A stretch of DNA of 64,000 nt from Halieaceae bacterium (GTDB taxonomy: Bacteria; Pseudomonadota; Gammaproteobacteria; Pseudomonadales; Halieaceae): NCBI GenBank assembly GCA_902623175.1, contig CACNSR010000001.1:1-64000 (forward strand), read 5' to 3'. A model generated the notes under the pieces. It did no database searches, was not told the origin of the DNA, and saw only the letters and a program-made list of their open reading frames with translations. The translations under genes were made by a program, and so were the position numbers. How positions within the stretch are numbered: position 1 is the stretch's first letter; each line of letters starts with the position of its first letter. Positions 52,508 to 57,404 of this stretch are shown in pieces.

Positions 52508-53065
52508 ATGAAATGGCATGATATCGACCAACAGGCCTGTTCCGTAGCGCGCGCACTCTCTGTGCTGGGCGAGCGCTGGACGCTGCTGATCATCCGCGAC
52601 GCCTTTCGCGGCACCCGGCGATTCGATGATTTTCAGCGCAGTCTCGGCGTGACGCGGCACCGGCTTTCGGAAAGACTCGGCAAATTGGTCGACGAGGGTG
52701 TGCTGACCCGAGTGGCCTATATGGAGCGCCCCACGCGCTACGAGTACCGATTGACCCGCAAAGGTCTGGCCCTATACCCCGTGCTCATGACGCTGAGCCA
52801 GTGGGGTGATGACTGGATGGATGATGGTAACGGCCCGCCCCAACGATACCGCCACAGCTTGTGTGGCAATCACACCCGGGCGGTATTGGCCTGCGCTGAA
52901 TGCGGTGACCCGTTGCGCCCGGAGGAAGTCTCGGCACAGGCGGGTGAGGTAGTGAGCGCGTATGTGGCGCATTTGAATGCGCTGGGGCAGCCGCTGCCCT
53001 CTGAGGGTGAGCTGGCGCGCGAGGCGGAACGTTATTGGCGCGAGAACAGGAGCGAACGGGCATGA
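52508..53065 (+). CDS. HxlR-family transcriptional regulator
   Basis: 185 aa from ATG 52508. The N-terminal wHTH matches HxlR/MarR-like proteins: CSVARALSVLGERWTLLIIR and FDDFQRSLGVTRHRLSERL. A C-terminal part of ~80 residues, not present in short HxlR proteins, carries LACAECGDPLRPEE, which looks like half of a zinc ribbon; an upstream Cys (LCGNHT) might complete the site. Stop overlaps the aldolase ATG (ATGA), so the regulator probably controls its own operon. Signal unknown. Confidence 0.88.
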   Translation: MKWHDIDQQACSVARALSVLGERWTLLIIRDAFRGTRRFDDFQRSLGVTRHRLSERLGKLVDEGVLTRVAYMERPTRYEYRLTRKGLALYPVLMTLSQWGDDWMDDGNGPPQRYRHSLCGNHTRAVLACAECGDPLRPEEVSAQAGEVVSAYVAHLNALGQPLPSEGELAREAERYWRENRSERA

Positions 53066-53850
53066 ACGAGCAAGTGAACCGACTGGTGATGAACGCGGAT
53101 TTGGCGAGCATGCCCGAGGTGGGTTTGGATCCGGCTGCCGAGCAGTTGCAACGCAAGCAGCGCCTAGCCGCAGCACTGCGAATTTTCGGCAAGTTTGGTT
53201 TTGACGAGGGTGTCGCCGGTCACATTACGGTCCGTGACCCCATCGATACCAACACCTTCTGGGTCAATCCTATGGGTCGCTCGTTCAAGCTCGTACGGGT
53301 CTCAGACCTGATCAGGGTCAGTCATGAGGGCGACATCGTTGAGGGCGAGGGGCTGCTGAATGGCGCGGCGTTCACGATTCACAGCCAAATTCATCAAGCG
53401 AGGCCGGAAGTCACCGCGGCGGCCCACGCCCACTCGATTTACGGCAAGGCCTGGTCTTCACTGGGGCGGTTGCTCGACCCCATCACACAGGATGCTTGCA
53501 CGTTTTATGGCGACCTCGCTTTGTTGGACGACTACACCGGTGTGGTGGTGTCTATGAGTGAAGGGGAGCGCCTCGCTGAGGCACTCGGCAATAAAAAAGC
53601 CATTGTGCTGAAGAATCATGGCCACCTGACGGTGGGCGAATCAGTCGATGAGGCGCTGTGGTGGTATGTGACCTTTGAGCGCAGCTGTCAGGCGCAGCTG
53701 GTGGCCGAGGCGGCGGGCACCACCCAGCCAATTCCCCACGATATGGCGCTTCACACGGCGCGGCAGGTTGGTAGCACCCTGGCCGGTTGGTTTAGCGCTC
53801 AGCCCCTGTTCGATGTCATTCTGAGCGAGCAGCCCGATCTCCTAGATTAG
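53062..53850 (+). CDS. Class II aldolase/adducin family protein
   Basis: 262 aa from ATG 53062, coupled to the HxlR gene. Zinc-site histidines: AAHAHSIYGKAW and LKNHGHLTVGESVDEA. The early GFDEGVAGHITVRDP and VNPMGRSF match the adducin-like subgroup of aldolases, whose members include fuculose-phosphate aldolase-like enzymes and many uncharacterised proteins. Substrate unknown. Its last four bases overlap the end of the membrane-protein gene on the other strand. Confidence 0.88.
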   Translation: MNEQVNRLVMNADLASMPEVGLDPAAEQLQRKQRLAAALRIFGKFGFDEGVAGHITVRDPIDTNTFWVNPMGRSFKLVRVSDLIRVSHEGDIVEGEGLLNGAAFTIHSQIHQARPEVTAAAHAHSIYGKAWSSLGRLLDPITQDACTFYGDLALLDDYTGVVVSMSEGERLAEALGNKKAIVLKNHGHLTVGESVDEALWWYVTFERSCQAQLVAEAAGTTQPIPHDMALHTARQVGSTLAGWFSAQPLFDVILSEQPDLLD

Positions 53851-54476
53851 TCGGCGGCGATGCCTTGCTCGTCGGGGATCAAGGGACCGCTGTTGGCGAG
53901 CTGATCCCGGTTGAAAGCCCGCCAGAGCGCGATTAAGACCATGATTTCGACGACCGCCAACACCCAGTGTAGTGATACCACCTGCTCGACGCGGTCGTCG
54001 ATCGTGGCAAAGTGCTCCAGGCCCGCGTAAACCGCCCACGCGCCCCCCATGCCGAGCAGGTAGCCTGTCTGTTTGGCCACATCGAGTTTGCGCAGCTGCT
54101 CCACCGAGACCATCAGCAGTGTCTCGCAGCGCACCAGATAATTGCCCAACGAGAAGGTTATCTGATAACCAATGTAGATAAACAACGCGAGGGCCAGCTC
54201 CAGGGGGAACCGGAGTACCGCTATCACGCCACTCAGCGTGACCAACTCTACGCCAAGCGACAGTCGAAAAAACCAGCCCGGCGCCAGAATGCGTCGGTAC
54301 TGGGTGGCAACGATCAGAGTGCCCAAGGCGAGTCCGATGCCGCCTGCCGAGAACACCGCAGGTGACAGCGGCGTGTAAAGCACAAACACGGCGCCGAGGG
54401 AGAGTCCGAGAAAAAGTGAGTTGAGAAACTTATAGCGGATAAAGGCGGCGGGACGTATCGCCGGGTGCGCGCCCAT
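53847..54476 (-). CDS. Uncharacterised six-helix membrane protein of the cobalamin operon
   Basis: 209 aa, about six hydrophobic spans, resembling half of an MFS-like carrier. N-terminus RYKFLNSLFLGLSLGAVF, then YTPLSPAVFSAGGIGLALG, a basic loop ATQYRRILAP, FSLGNYLVRCETLLM with the only Cys, and a C-terminal pair of spans. It starts two bases after the cobO stop, so it is the third gene of the riboswitch-controlled btuB-cobO unit. Size and helix count would suit a small inner-membrane cobalamin carrier such as BtuM, but I cannot recognise BtuM sequence; conserved hypothetical families of similar look occur elsewhere. A role in B12 or corrinoid uptake is inferred from context only. Confidence 0.72.
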   Translation of the reverse strand: MGAHPAIRPAAFIRYKFLNSLFLGLSLGAVFVLYTPLSPAVFSAGGIGLALGTLIVATQYRRILAPGWFFRLSLGVELVTLSGVIAVLRFPLELALALFIYIGYQITFSLGNYLVRCETLLMVSVEQLRKLDVAKQTGYLLGMGGAWAVYAGLEHFATIDDRVEQVVSLHWVLAVVEIMVLIALWRAFNRDQLANSGPLIPDEQGIAAD

Positions 54477-54478
54477 TG

Positions 54479-55078
54479 TCAGTAGTCCACGCCCCGTCGC
54501 GCGGAGATCCCGGCGCGGTAAGCGTGTTTGACCTCCTTGACCTCAGATACGGTGTCTATGGCCTCGCGCAAGGCCTGACCCCCGCCGCGACCAGTGACCA
54601 CCACGCTTTGTGACTCGGGTCGCCCCGTGAGCGCACTGATTACCTCACTCTCTGGAAGATAGTCAAAGGCCAGCATGTAGGTGAGCTCGTCGAGCACAAC
54701 CAGGTCGTAGCTGGCGTCGGCTAACATTTTCCGGGCATGTTCCCAGGTGCGCTTGGCCGCGGCGATGTCGCTCTCCCGGTCCTGTGTGTCCCAGGTAAAC
54801 CCGGTGCCCATTTGGTGAAGTTCCACACCGGGCAAATGGTCTCTGACAAAATTCTCTTCACCCGAGGCCTGTGCGCCTTTGATAAACTGCACCACGCCCA
54901 CTTTTTGGCCGTAGCCCAGCGCTCGCATCACCATGCCAAAGGCGGAACTGGTCTTACCTTTGCCATCGCCGGTCAATAACACCGACACGCCGCGCTCGAT
55001 GTTCGCCTTGGCGATGCCCTCGTCCACAGCGGCTTTCTGTTTGGCCATCGCCTTGTTGTGTTTGGTATTGCGATCCAC
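54479..55078 (-). CDS. cobO: Cob(I)yrinic acid a,c-diamide adenosyltransferase
   Basis: 199 aa CobA/CobO/BtuR-type enzyme that adenosylates corrinoids. P-loop LLTGDGKGKTSSAFG, then AFGMVMRALGYGQKVGVVQF, VVLDELTYMLAFDYL and VVTGRGGGQALREAIDT. In salvage it turns imported cob(I)alamin into the coenzyme form. Nine bases after btuB, same transcript. Confidence 0.94.
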   Translation of the reverse strand: MDRNTKHNKAMAKQKAAVDEGIAKANIERGVSVLLTGDGKGKTSSAFGMVMRALGYGQKVGVVQFIKGAQASGEENFVRDHLPGVELHQMGTGFTWDTQDRESDIAAAKRTWEHARKMLADASYDLVVLDELTYMLAFDYLPESEVISALTGRPESQSVVVTGRGGGQALREAIDTVSEVKEVKHAYRAGISARRGVDY

Positions 55079-55087
55079 AGCAAGCTC

Positions 55088-57106
55088 CTACAGCTCAAGG
55101 CGCACGCCCGCATAAGCGGTCATGCCGGGCACATAATAGCCCGGGAGCTGCTGGTCATCGTGATCTGTGACGTTGAGAACTCTGGCTTCCAGCGCCCAAC
55201 GCTCCGAAAAATCCCATTGAGCGCTCAGGTCGAGAGTAAAAGTGTCGTCAATTGAAGTCATGAAGGGGTCGGTAGCGTCTCCGGTGTAGCGGCCGGTGAC
55301 TCTGGCGCGCAAATTATTGCGAGTCCATACGATACTTACCTGGCCAGTTTGATCAGGTCTATAGGCACGATCGTCACCGTTTTGCTGTGTGGCGTCGAGC
55401 GAGGTGAAGTTGCCCTCAATGCGCCATCGCTCGGACAGCCGCAAGCTGGCGATGATTTCCAGGCCTTCAGACGAACTGGTTCCATTGGTTTGCAGGTAGC
55501 CACTGTAACCCGCAAGGTCAAAGATGATCTCGTTGTCAATTTCCTGATCAAACCAGATTAGCTCGAGATCAAGGTTTCCCAGCGCCCCCAAGACGGCGAT
55601 TTCCCAGCCCTCGGATTGTTCCTCTAGAAGCGGCGTGCTGCTCGCGGGAGGGTAAGCAAAGGGCCCGCTGTTATAGGCGATCTCGTAAAGACTCGGCGCG
55701 CGAAAACCGGTGCCGATCGCAGCTCGGAGCGCCCAGCCCTCGGCCGTGCCGTCCAGATCATAGCGCCCACTGACCCGCCAACTGTCGAACTCGCCGAAGT
55801 CGTCGTTGTCGTCATGACGCCAGCCAACGGTCATCACGCCGCGTCCAAATCGCTGTTGGGCTTCCAGATAAATGCCCGTATTGTCTCTGGACCAATCGGT
55901 GCTGGCATCCGAGAGCGCCTGCTCCTCATGATCCACACCGTAAGTGAGGCGCGTGTTGTCTGTGAGCCGCCATGAGCCGGTCAGGGAAGTGGTGTCCGTT
56001 TCGCCTTCAGTCTCGTAAGACAAAATGCCGGCAGAGAAAAAGGCGCGCTCTGTATCGCTCGAGGCATAGCTGAGCTCGACGGTGTGTTTGTCAGAAGCGT
56101 AGCGCAGCGCGCCGCGCCAGGCTTGTTGCTCGTACTCATCGTCACAGTCGTGAATCAACGCAAACGTGGCGGTATCGTAGCAGCCGTCATATTCGTTATC
56201 GCCAGAGATATCCGCTGCTGCAACCTGCAATGAGATGGCGTCGCTGATCGCCCAGGATATCGCTCCGTGAGCGGTCGTATTCTCGTAGCCATCCCGGTCT
56301 GGGTCTACGCTGTCAATCTCCCTGGCGTTGAAGCCTTCGGTTTCCAGCTGCGAGAGCGACACTGACGCTGTCATTTGGTCAGTACTCAAAACGCCGTTGA
56401 TGGCGCCCTGATAAAAATCGTCGCTGCCGGCCTCTAAATGGCCTTCCACACCCGACTCGGCATTGGCGTCGACCGTTGACATGAGGATCACGCCGCCGGC
56501 ATCGGCTCCCCAAAGCAATCCCTGAGGACCGCGCAGGATTTCCACTCGGGTTAAGCCACTGCTGACCAGGTGTTCGATTCGGGGACTGACTTGAGGGGAA
56601 GAGGGGTCGGCGATATTGATACCGTCCAGCACAATCCGGGTGCGGTAGCCCTCCTCACCTCGGATCCGAACCGCTGCGGCTTTGCCGTAACCGCCATCCA
56701 TGGTCACGGTGACGCCCGGTTGGGTGTCGAGCAGTGAAGCAAGGTCGGGATAAGCCAGAGATCGCATCATGTCCTCATCGATCACGCTGACCGAGACCCC
56801 GATCTGATCAATTAGGTCGGGTGTTCGCGACGAGACCACGACTTCCTCTACTTCGTTGACATCGGTCGACGTTCGGGCAGAGGAGTCCTGTGCCATGGTG
56901 AAGCACGATGCAGTCAGTGCCCAAACAAACAGTGCGGTGGACCGAAAAACAGTGCCAAAAGACCATATGGCATGCGGTGCGACGGCATCGACAATAGCCG
57001 AATACGGCTGCGGATCCTGATTGGCAAACCGAGACGCAGACTGCACCTGTGCCTGATCAACTGGTGAGGCGATCGCTTGATGGCCATGAGAATGTGAAAC
57101 TGTCAT
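55088..57106 (-). CDS. btuB: TonB-dependent vitamin B12 receptor BtuB
   Basis: 672 aa from ATG 57106, which has AGGGG just upstream; the track start adds 29 residues that belong to the riboswitch leader. The N-terminus is odd: a His-rich lead (SHSHGHQ) of ~50 residues before a hydrophobic signal (TALFVWALTASCFTMAQ). Then the TonB box region EVEEVVVSSRTP, the plug domain (VRIRGEEGYRTRIVLDGI, VEILRGPQGLLWGADAGGV) and a 22-strand barrel ending in aromatic YAGVRLEL. The upstream cobalamin riboswitch fixes the substrate as a corrinoid. Confidence 0.93.
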   Translation of the reverse strand: MTVSHSHGHQAIASPVDQAQVQSASRFANQDPQPYSAIVDAVAPHAIWSFGTVFRSTALFVWALTASCFTMAQDSSARTSTDVNEVEEVVVSSRTPDLIDQIGVSVSVIDEDMMRSLAYPDLASLLDTQPGVTVTMDGGYGKAAAVRIRGEEGYRTRIVLDGINIADPSSPQVSPRIEHLVSSGLTRVEILRGPQGLLWGADAGGVILMSTVDANAESGVEGHLEAGSDDFYQGAINGVLSTDQMTASVSLSQLETEGFNAREIDSVDPDRDGYENTTAHGAISWAISDAISLQVAAADISGDNEYDGCYDTATFALIHDCDDEYEQQAWRGALRYASDKHTVELSYASSDTERAFFSAGILSYETEGETDTTSLTGSWRLTDNTRLTYGVDHEEQALSDASTDWSRDNTGIYLEAQQRFGRGVMTVGWRHDDNDDFGEFDSWRVSGRYDLDGTAEGWALRAAIGTGFRAPSLYEIAYNSGPFAYPPASSTPLLEEQSEGWEIAVLGALGNLDLELIWFDQEIDNEIIFDLAGYSGYLQTNGTSSSEGLEIIASLRLSERWRIEGNFTSLDATQQNGDDRAYRPDQTGQVSIVWTRNNLRARVTGRYTGDATDPFMTSIDDTFTLDLSAQWDFSERWALEARVLNVTDHDDQQLPGYYVPGMTAYAGVRLEL

Positions 57107-57246
57107 CTCTTCCCCTATTGGTGTTGTAGCCGTCAGTGCGGCGTTCGGGGCGAGGGGCAAGGGATGCATGACACGCGTGGAAGTTGACGCCACAGGTATT
57201 CAGCGCATCCTGTGGGAGCCCTCCGCTCCACATGATGTGTGTGTTG

Positions 57247-57368
57247 ATCAGGCAGGTATCGGGCTCTCACCTCAGTGATGACCGTTGCGGGGGCAGCGCC
57301 GGACTTGCCAAAGCTCACCGGACTTCCCTTTTAACCTGCCCAGATCGTAAGACCGGCAGGCACCTGAT
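57247..57368 (-). promoter_or_regulatory. Cobalamin riboswitch upstream of btuB
   Basis: Read on the minus strand: P1 arm ATCAGG, GTGCCTGCCGG, then AAAAGGGAAGTCCGGTGAG, AAGTCCGGCGCTGCC, CCCGCAACGGTC (the CCCCCGCAAC core), GAGCCCGATACCTGCC and closing arm CCTGAT. These are the conserved blocks of the class with the B12 box. Downstream, a CCCCT at 57157-57153 can pair with the btuB Shine-Dalgarno AGGGG, so control is probably at translation initiation. It should switch off btuB-cobO and the membrane gene when cobalamin is plentiful. Confidence 0.95.
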
Positions 57369-57375
57369 CCGCGGC

Positions 57376-57404
57376 ACCTTACTCTCACTCGATACCGGGG
57401 TCAA
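57376..57404 (-). promoter_or_regulatory. Promoter of the riboswitch-btuB unit
   Basis: On the minus strand TTGACC, 17-base spacer, TAAGGT. Predicted transcription start is at about 57369, exactly before the riboswitch P1 arm, which supports both calls. Confidence 0.6.

Follow-up and report, generated by a model that had tools for sequence, protein, structure and literature searches.

The btuB-cobO operon and its cobalamin riboswitch

The window analyzed here is the whole stretch of 64,000 nucleotides from contig CACNSR010000001.1, which derives from a Halieaceae genome (85% complete) of the genus named Luminiphilus in public records. On its minus strand, a cobalamin riboswitch is followed by btuB, cobO, and a gene for a membrane protein that we refer to as X. 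The riboswitch aptamer (RF00174, 57234..57382 (-)), located upstream of btuB, was matched by cmscan over the full model (positions 1-189 of 189) with 68.8 bits (E 6.9e-15), above the gathering score of 31.5 bits. The ORF of the btuB-like TonB-dependent receptor (55088..57193 (-), 701 aa from the first GTG; TIGR01779 2.1e-60, PF00593, and PF07715) is separated by 9 bp from cobO/btuR (54479..55078 (-), 199 aa; PF02572 5.3e-61), which encodes the ATP:corrinoid adenosyltransferase, and only 2 bp lie between cobO and X (53847..54476 (-), 209 aa). The 3' end of X overlaps by 4 bp with a convergent aldolase-type gene (53035-53850 (+)). The riboswitch before btuB, this gene order with both gaps, and a six-helix membrane protein of about 209 aa had all been named in the preliminary description of the locus, and each was recovered here. 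A promoter had been described together with the riboswitch and is not supported, as a consensus scan returned no sigma-70-like promoter (1.3 expected by chance).

CobO exceeds the equivalog cut-off of TIGR00708 (211.9 bits; cut-off 167.75 bits) and also scores above the cut-off of NF004637. The best NCBIfam model of the receptor is TIGR01779, matched over its full length with 205 bits and thus below the equivalog cut-off of 599.7 bits; the riboswitch and cobO context back its role as BtuB. The receptor ORF shares 36% identity over 612 aa with btuB of a sister genus, in an alignment that begins at residue 94. The first ~90 aa (window 56900-57193 (-)) have no counterpart in this homologue, and a signal-peptide-like stretch directly precedes the conserved part, so the true btuB start is probably downstream of the listed GTG.

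The corrin-ring synthesis marker CbiC was found in none of 57 Luminiphilus genomes, the genome studied here encodes methylmalonyl-CoA mutase plus a second set of mutase subunits, which depend on AdoCbl, the product of CobO, and Luminiphilus syltensis is reported to need vitamin B12 for growth (PMC3679898). Luminiphilus must therefore import B12, and it has the receptor and lacks the best-known inner-membrane pump. Many B12-dependent Gram-negative bacteria possess BtuB but no BtuCDF, and their inward B12 carriers are mostly unidentified (PMC6072759). The second coenzyme-B12 mutase set, on contig C3 of the same genome (L135:467-3192), comprises consecutive genes for a large subunit, a small subunit that binds B12, and a MeaB-like GTPase, and is adjoined by an acyl-CoA dehydrogenase-like gene.

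Replacement of btuCDF and frequent absence of FecCD in Luminiphilus

X is present in 50 of the 57 Luminiphilus genomes, in the order btuB-cobO-X, and the seven genomes without it are 54-83% complete. Beyond this genus, it was found in one of 83 other genomes of the family, and in a set of 369 genomes spread over Gammaproteobacteria it occurred only in the genome studied here. We read 45 Halieaceae X loci with their flanks, collected in two overlapping fetches with some genomes counted twice: X is preceded by cobO and a TonB receptor in 41 and by cobO alone in one, and three are cut by contig ends. A riboswitch search of 15 X loci was positive in 12, and the upstream region is cut off in two of the remaining three. 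Luminiphilus carries two X subfamilies that are 36-43% identical to each other, both of which reside in the same operon.

Sister genera encode riboswitch-btuB-cobO-btuC-btuD-btuF (L156 and L157), where the last three genes specify a FecCD permease, an ABC ATPase, and a binding protein. Three further loci (L159, L161, and L164) have the same operon with extra genes in between, e.g., for a CobB/CobQ-type amidotransferase. Judged by gene order, X sits precisely where the sister-genus operon has btuCDF.

We surveyed FecCD, the BtuC-type permease, in 140 genomes of the family (57 Luminiphilus and 83 others). It scored above the cut-off in 79 of the 83 other genomes but in only six of the 57 Luminiphilus genomes, and it is missing from 50 of the latter. 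The Fisher value (2e-20) ignores kinship and is purely descriptive. Incompleteness of metagenome-assembled genomes could hide genes; complete genomes nonetheless agree. FecCD was not found in three single-contig Luminiphilus genomes (G006, G031, and G053), and all 17 Luminiphilus genomes that are at least 90% complete have X, whereas 16 of them, the single-contig ones included, lack FecCD. The cultured NOR5/OM60 strain HTCC2080 (L074) also has X, and no FecCD was found in it.

The only FecCD found in the genome studied here is part of a heme-type uptake operon that lies outside the window, some 39-44 kb past it (G000:C1:102732-107712, corresponding to L032:4733-9713), which encodes a TonB receptor, a binding protein, the FecCD permease, and an ATPase. 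The receptor scores above the cut-offs of the heme-type models TIGR01785 and TIGR01786, and no riboswitch accompanies the operon, so this FecCD was rejected as BtuC; the permease taken alone does score with BtuC models, as FecCD permeases generally do. The FecCD copies in G021, G033, G050, and G060 likewise adjoin a heme-type receptor, 62-89% identical to that of the genome studied here. The gene neighborhood in G010 is more ambiguous, and the finding does not extend to G046. The scanned Luminiphilus FecCD contexts (L032, L165, L166, and L168), drawn from four of these five heme-type ones and that of G010, contain no riboswitch.

The preliminary description had reported BtuC, BtuD, and BtuF as absent, and indeed none adjoins btuB and the sole FecCD found in the genome is the heme-type one. 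It had also suggested that X could be a new inner-membrane B12 transporter, a reading that a complete BtuCDF elsewhere together with homologues lacking any link to B12 genes, or a profile match to an unrelated function, would have refuted. No BtuCDF was found elsewhere in complete Luminiphilus genomes, and the survey of riboswitch and btuB co-occurrence and of BtuCDF absence strongly favors an inner-membrane B12 transporter, although the function itself is inferred. Because X has taken the place of BtuCDF and most of the genomes have no FecCD, X is probably an unrecognized B12 importer.

X in Campylobacterota and other phyla

X was found in 70 of 298 sampled Campylobacterota genomes (Sulfurovum, Nitratifractor, Sulfurimonas, and Arcobacteraceae), and with few exceptions among the loci read, the gene immediately preceding it encodes a TonB receptor, mostly a BtuB-like one. 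Nine receptors adjoining X were compared with NCBIfam, and TIGR01779 was the best model for eight; a siderophore model scored best for the ninth and for one further Campylobacterota receptor. Two loci with receptors of this siderophore-model type have metH nearby (L203 and L204). Other arrangements are metH-cobO-btuB-X (L192), metH followed by cobO-X (L195), and cobO-btuB-X (L196-L198), and in L193 and L195, X adjoins cobO without an immediately preceding TonB receptor. No Rfam riboswitch was detected in 28 Campylobacterota and other distant X loci.

A strong FecCD match is present in only seven of the 43 genomes behind the X loci that lie on genome contigs. In the Campylobacterota sample, strong FecCD matches occur in 28 of the 70 X-bearing genomes versus 178 of the 228 others, with the substrate undetermined; this comparison is weaker than that in Halieaceae because FecCD in Campylobacterota also serves iron uptake. 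Weak FecCD hits in this phylum (about 17-37 bits, ~270 aa) were not counted, since strong matches score far higher, and we infer that they represent another ABC permease family.

In the protein tree, the Luminiphilus sequences group apart from the Campylobacterota and Flavobacteriales copies, and many forks are weak. The gene has likely been transferred between phyla, in an undetermined direction; no plasmid homologues were found. In about 14 Campylobacterota loci, a Cys-rich protein of ~140-150 aa is encoded directly downstream of or near X (L126:5561-5986 (+); further examples are L082, L095, L101, L106, L108, L111, L116, L118, and L190). It has no Pfam or NCBIfam match and is possibly a further corrinoid-handling protein.

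The homologues do have a B12 link, though not in every case. Four Flavobacteriales copies (L078, L079, L080, and L086) sit behind a GAPDH-like gene, as read from sequence, and have no B12 neighbors; FecCD matches are absent from these four genomes too. The Thiotrichaceae copy (L081:4935-5540) follows bioH-like and bioC-like genes (the latter for a methyltransferase; also read from sequence) and is in a biotin rather than a B12 neighborhood. These copies, and the X-adjoining Campylobacterota receptors that are not clearly BtuB, leave some room for X being a general small membrane carrier without B12 specificity that joined the operon fortuitously. We find this hardly credible, as a TonB receptor is linked to X in 41 of the 45 Halieaceae loci and in 60 of the 70 others, in several arrangements that include cobO and metH, and 28 columns are invariant across 69 X sequences from several phyla.

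Instead of whole corrinoids, X could also carry another B12-related solute, either cobalt or a precursor of the lower ligand such as alpha-ribazole or dimethylbenzimidazole, given that transporters for cobalt and for precursors are likewise under cobalamin riboswitch control elsewhere. CbiC is missing from the genus, however, which makes de novo corrin synthesis and the associated use of cobalt unlikely and speaks against a cobalt transporter, and the receptor paired with X in two phyla is of the kind that imports the intact cofactor. We regard this alternative as very improbable.

Sequence family, predicted structure, and proposed role of X

Neither X alone nor a profile of 69 X sequences matched anything beyond chance level in Pfam, NCBIfam, or PDB sequences, so that profile searches in Pfam and NCBIfam, which could have refuted a transporter, assign X no other function. 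The major facilitator superfamily (MFS) profile PF07690 hit one of the 69 members with an E-value of 0.95, which does not qualify as a match. Comparison of X by hhalign with 20 MFS proteins of the same genome yielded a probability of 0.2%, and comparison with FecCD yielded nothing; X is thus unrelated in sequence to FecCD. We found no description of the family in the literature, a search limited to open-licence papers, and it may be noted elsewhere.

The invariant positions include K16, N19, E77, Q105, R116, E118, D132, and K135. Six of them (K16, E77, R116, E118, D132, and K135) are charged and lie within or beside helices, where they might bind the substrate or take part in ion coupling. The 69 sequences share no invariant Cys or His. 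Attention had initially been drawn to the single Cys of X, in LGNYLVRCETLLM, but this residue (Cys117) is not conserved in the family, most other members having A, F, Y, L, V, I, or S at this site.

AlphaFold2 modeling with the family alignment confidently predicted six long helices for X (pLDDT 89.9), and the model of a Sulfurovum homologue, built with 68 sequences, reached a pLDDT of 93.6. For both models, the top 50 Foldseek hits in the PDB are almost all transporters of the MFS fold or relatives (e.g., an equilibrative nucleoside transporter), with alignments that cover one six-helix MFS half and most of the model length. The E-values are weak (0.05-0.5), the probabilities are mostly >0.9, and TM-scores are mostly 0.4-0.67. 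Given these weak values and the lack of a sequence relation to MFS proteins by hhalign, the MFS-half fold is suggestive but not proven. Since the models resemble one six-helix half of an MFS transporter, X may act as a homodimer; this model-based idea is tentative and much less certain than the transport role.

An accessory role in corrinoid handling, for instance as a partner of BtuB or CobO in binding or hand-off, with a different transporter performing the inner-membrane step, would fit the loci in which X adjoins cobO without an immediate TonB receptor (L193 and L195). The absence of FecCD leaves carriers of the BtuM or ECF CbrT type possible, for which no genome-wide profile search was performed, and no function of X has been measured. 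An accessory protein would, however, leave unexplained the loss of FecCD from 16 of 17 near-complete genomes, and it fits poorly with the location of X exactly where btuCDF would be and with a predicted fold that resembles transporters. We therefore consider an accessory role unlikely, if less so than the two alternatives above.

Our favored interpretation, which we hold with good though incomplete confidence, is that X is a single-component inner-membrane importer of cobalamin and probably other corrinoids that replaced BtuCDF; transport itself is untested. Low cellular AdoCbl would cause the riboswitch to permit expression of the operon, BtuB and TonB would carry the corrinoid into the periplasm, and X would move it across the inner membrane. 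CobO would adenosylate the arriving corrinoid, thereby trapping it and supplying AdoCbl to methylmalonyl-CoA-type mutases. Two six-helix copies of X might form an MFS-like carrier, driven by an ion gradient or pulled by CobO-mediated adenosylation. Sequence evidence establishes the operon with its riboswitch, the substitution of X for btuCDF, the absence of FecCD, and the B12 linkage across phyla, and the six helices rest on a confident model, whereas transport, the substrate, the step from an MFS-half fold to a homodimer, the nature of X as a secondary transporter, and its energy source are inferred.

Several observations weigh against a transport role: there are no transport or binding data, cobalamin is a bulky substrate for a carrier of half size, some homologues occur outside a B12 context, some of the neighboring receptors in Campylobacterota score best with a siderophore model, and FecCD co-occurs with X in 28 of the 70 Campylobacterota genomes. 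Against an MFS-like carrier in particular, the resemblance is structural only, and profile-profile comparison gives nothing. The full proposal, a new B12 importer family that works as a half-size MFS-like homodimer, needs neither ATPase nor binding protein, and replaces BtuCDF in Luminiphilus and part of the Campylobacterota, remains a possibility of which we are less than half convinced. For abundant marine bacteria (Luminiphilus and HTCC2080) as well as Campylobacterota such as Sulfurovum, X offers a candidate that is conserved and can be tested. If the proposal is true, X would be an unusually small carrier of an unusually large substrate, and genome-based prediction of B12 dependence and exchange would have to include its family.

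Among known systems, MFS proteins (SLC19 folate/thiamine carriers, VMAT, and FLVCR) have one six-helix half that aligns with the X models (TM-score ≤0.67), yet X is half their size, has no detectable sequence relation to them, and matches them with weak Foldseek E-values. The ECF S-component CbrT provides a B12 route other than BtuCDF and depends on an ECF module, and the ABC protein Rv1819c contains a nucleotide-binding domain; X lacks such a domain. Rv1819c is a known B12 importer other than BtuCDF (PMC3603451).

BtuM of the Thiobacillus denitrificans type is a protein of about 22 kDa with six helices that is proposed to act alone without an ATPase, occurs in bacteria with btuB and without BtuCDF, and has an invariant Cys as cobalt ligand in a thiolate-cobalt mechanism (PMC6072759). 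X is similar in mass (about 22 kDa), helix number, and the btuB-positive, BtuCDF-negative host. Unlike BtuM, it has no sequence match to any PDB chain (phmmer and the 69-sequence profile against all PDB chains, presumed to include the BtuM crystal structure), and neither BtuM nor an ECF-S-like S-component is among the top 50 Foldseek hits of the two models. The cobalt-binding Cys of BtuM has no counterpart, as the single Cys of X is not conserved, which speaks against a BtuM-like cysteine mechanism, and this reading was rejected. Given the lack of a sequence match, a fold match, and a conserved Cys, X is not BtuM. Compared with BtuCDF, X consists of a single gene (~200 aa) that has no accompanying ATPase or binding protein and no FecCD-type permease match, yet it holds the same place in the riboswitch-btuB-cobO operon.
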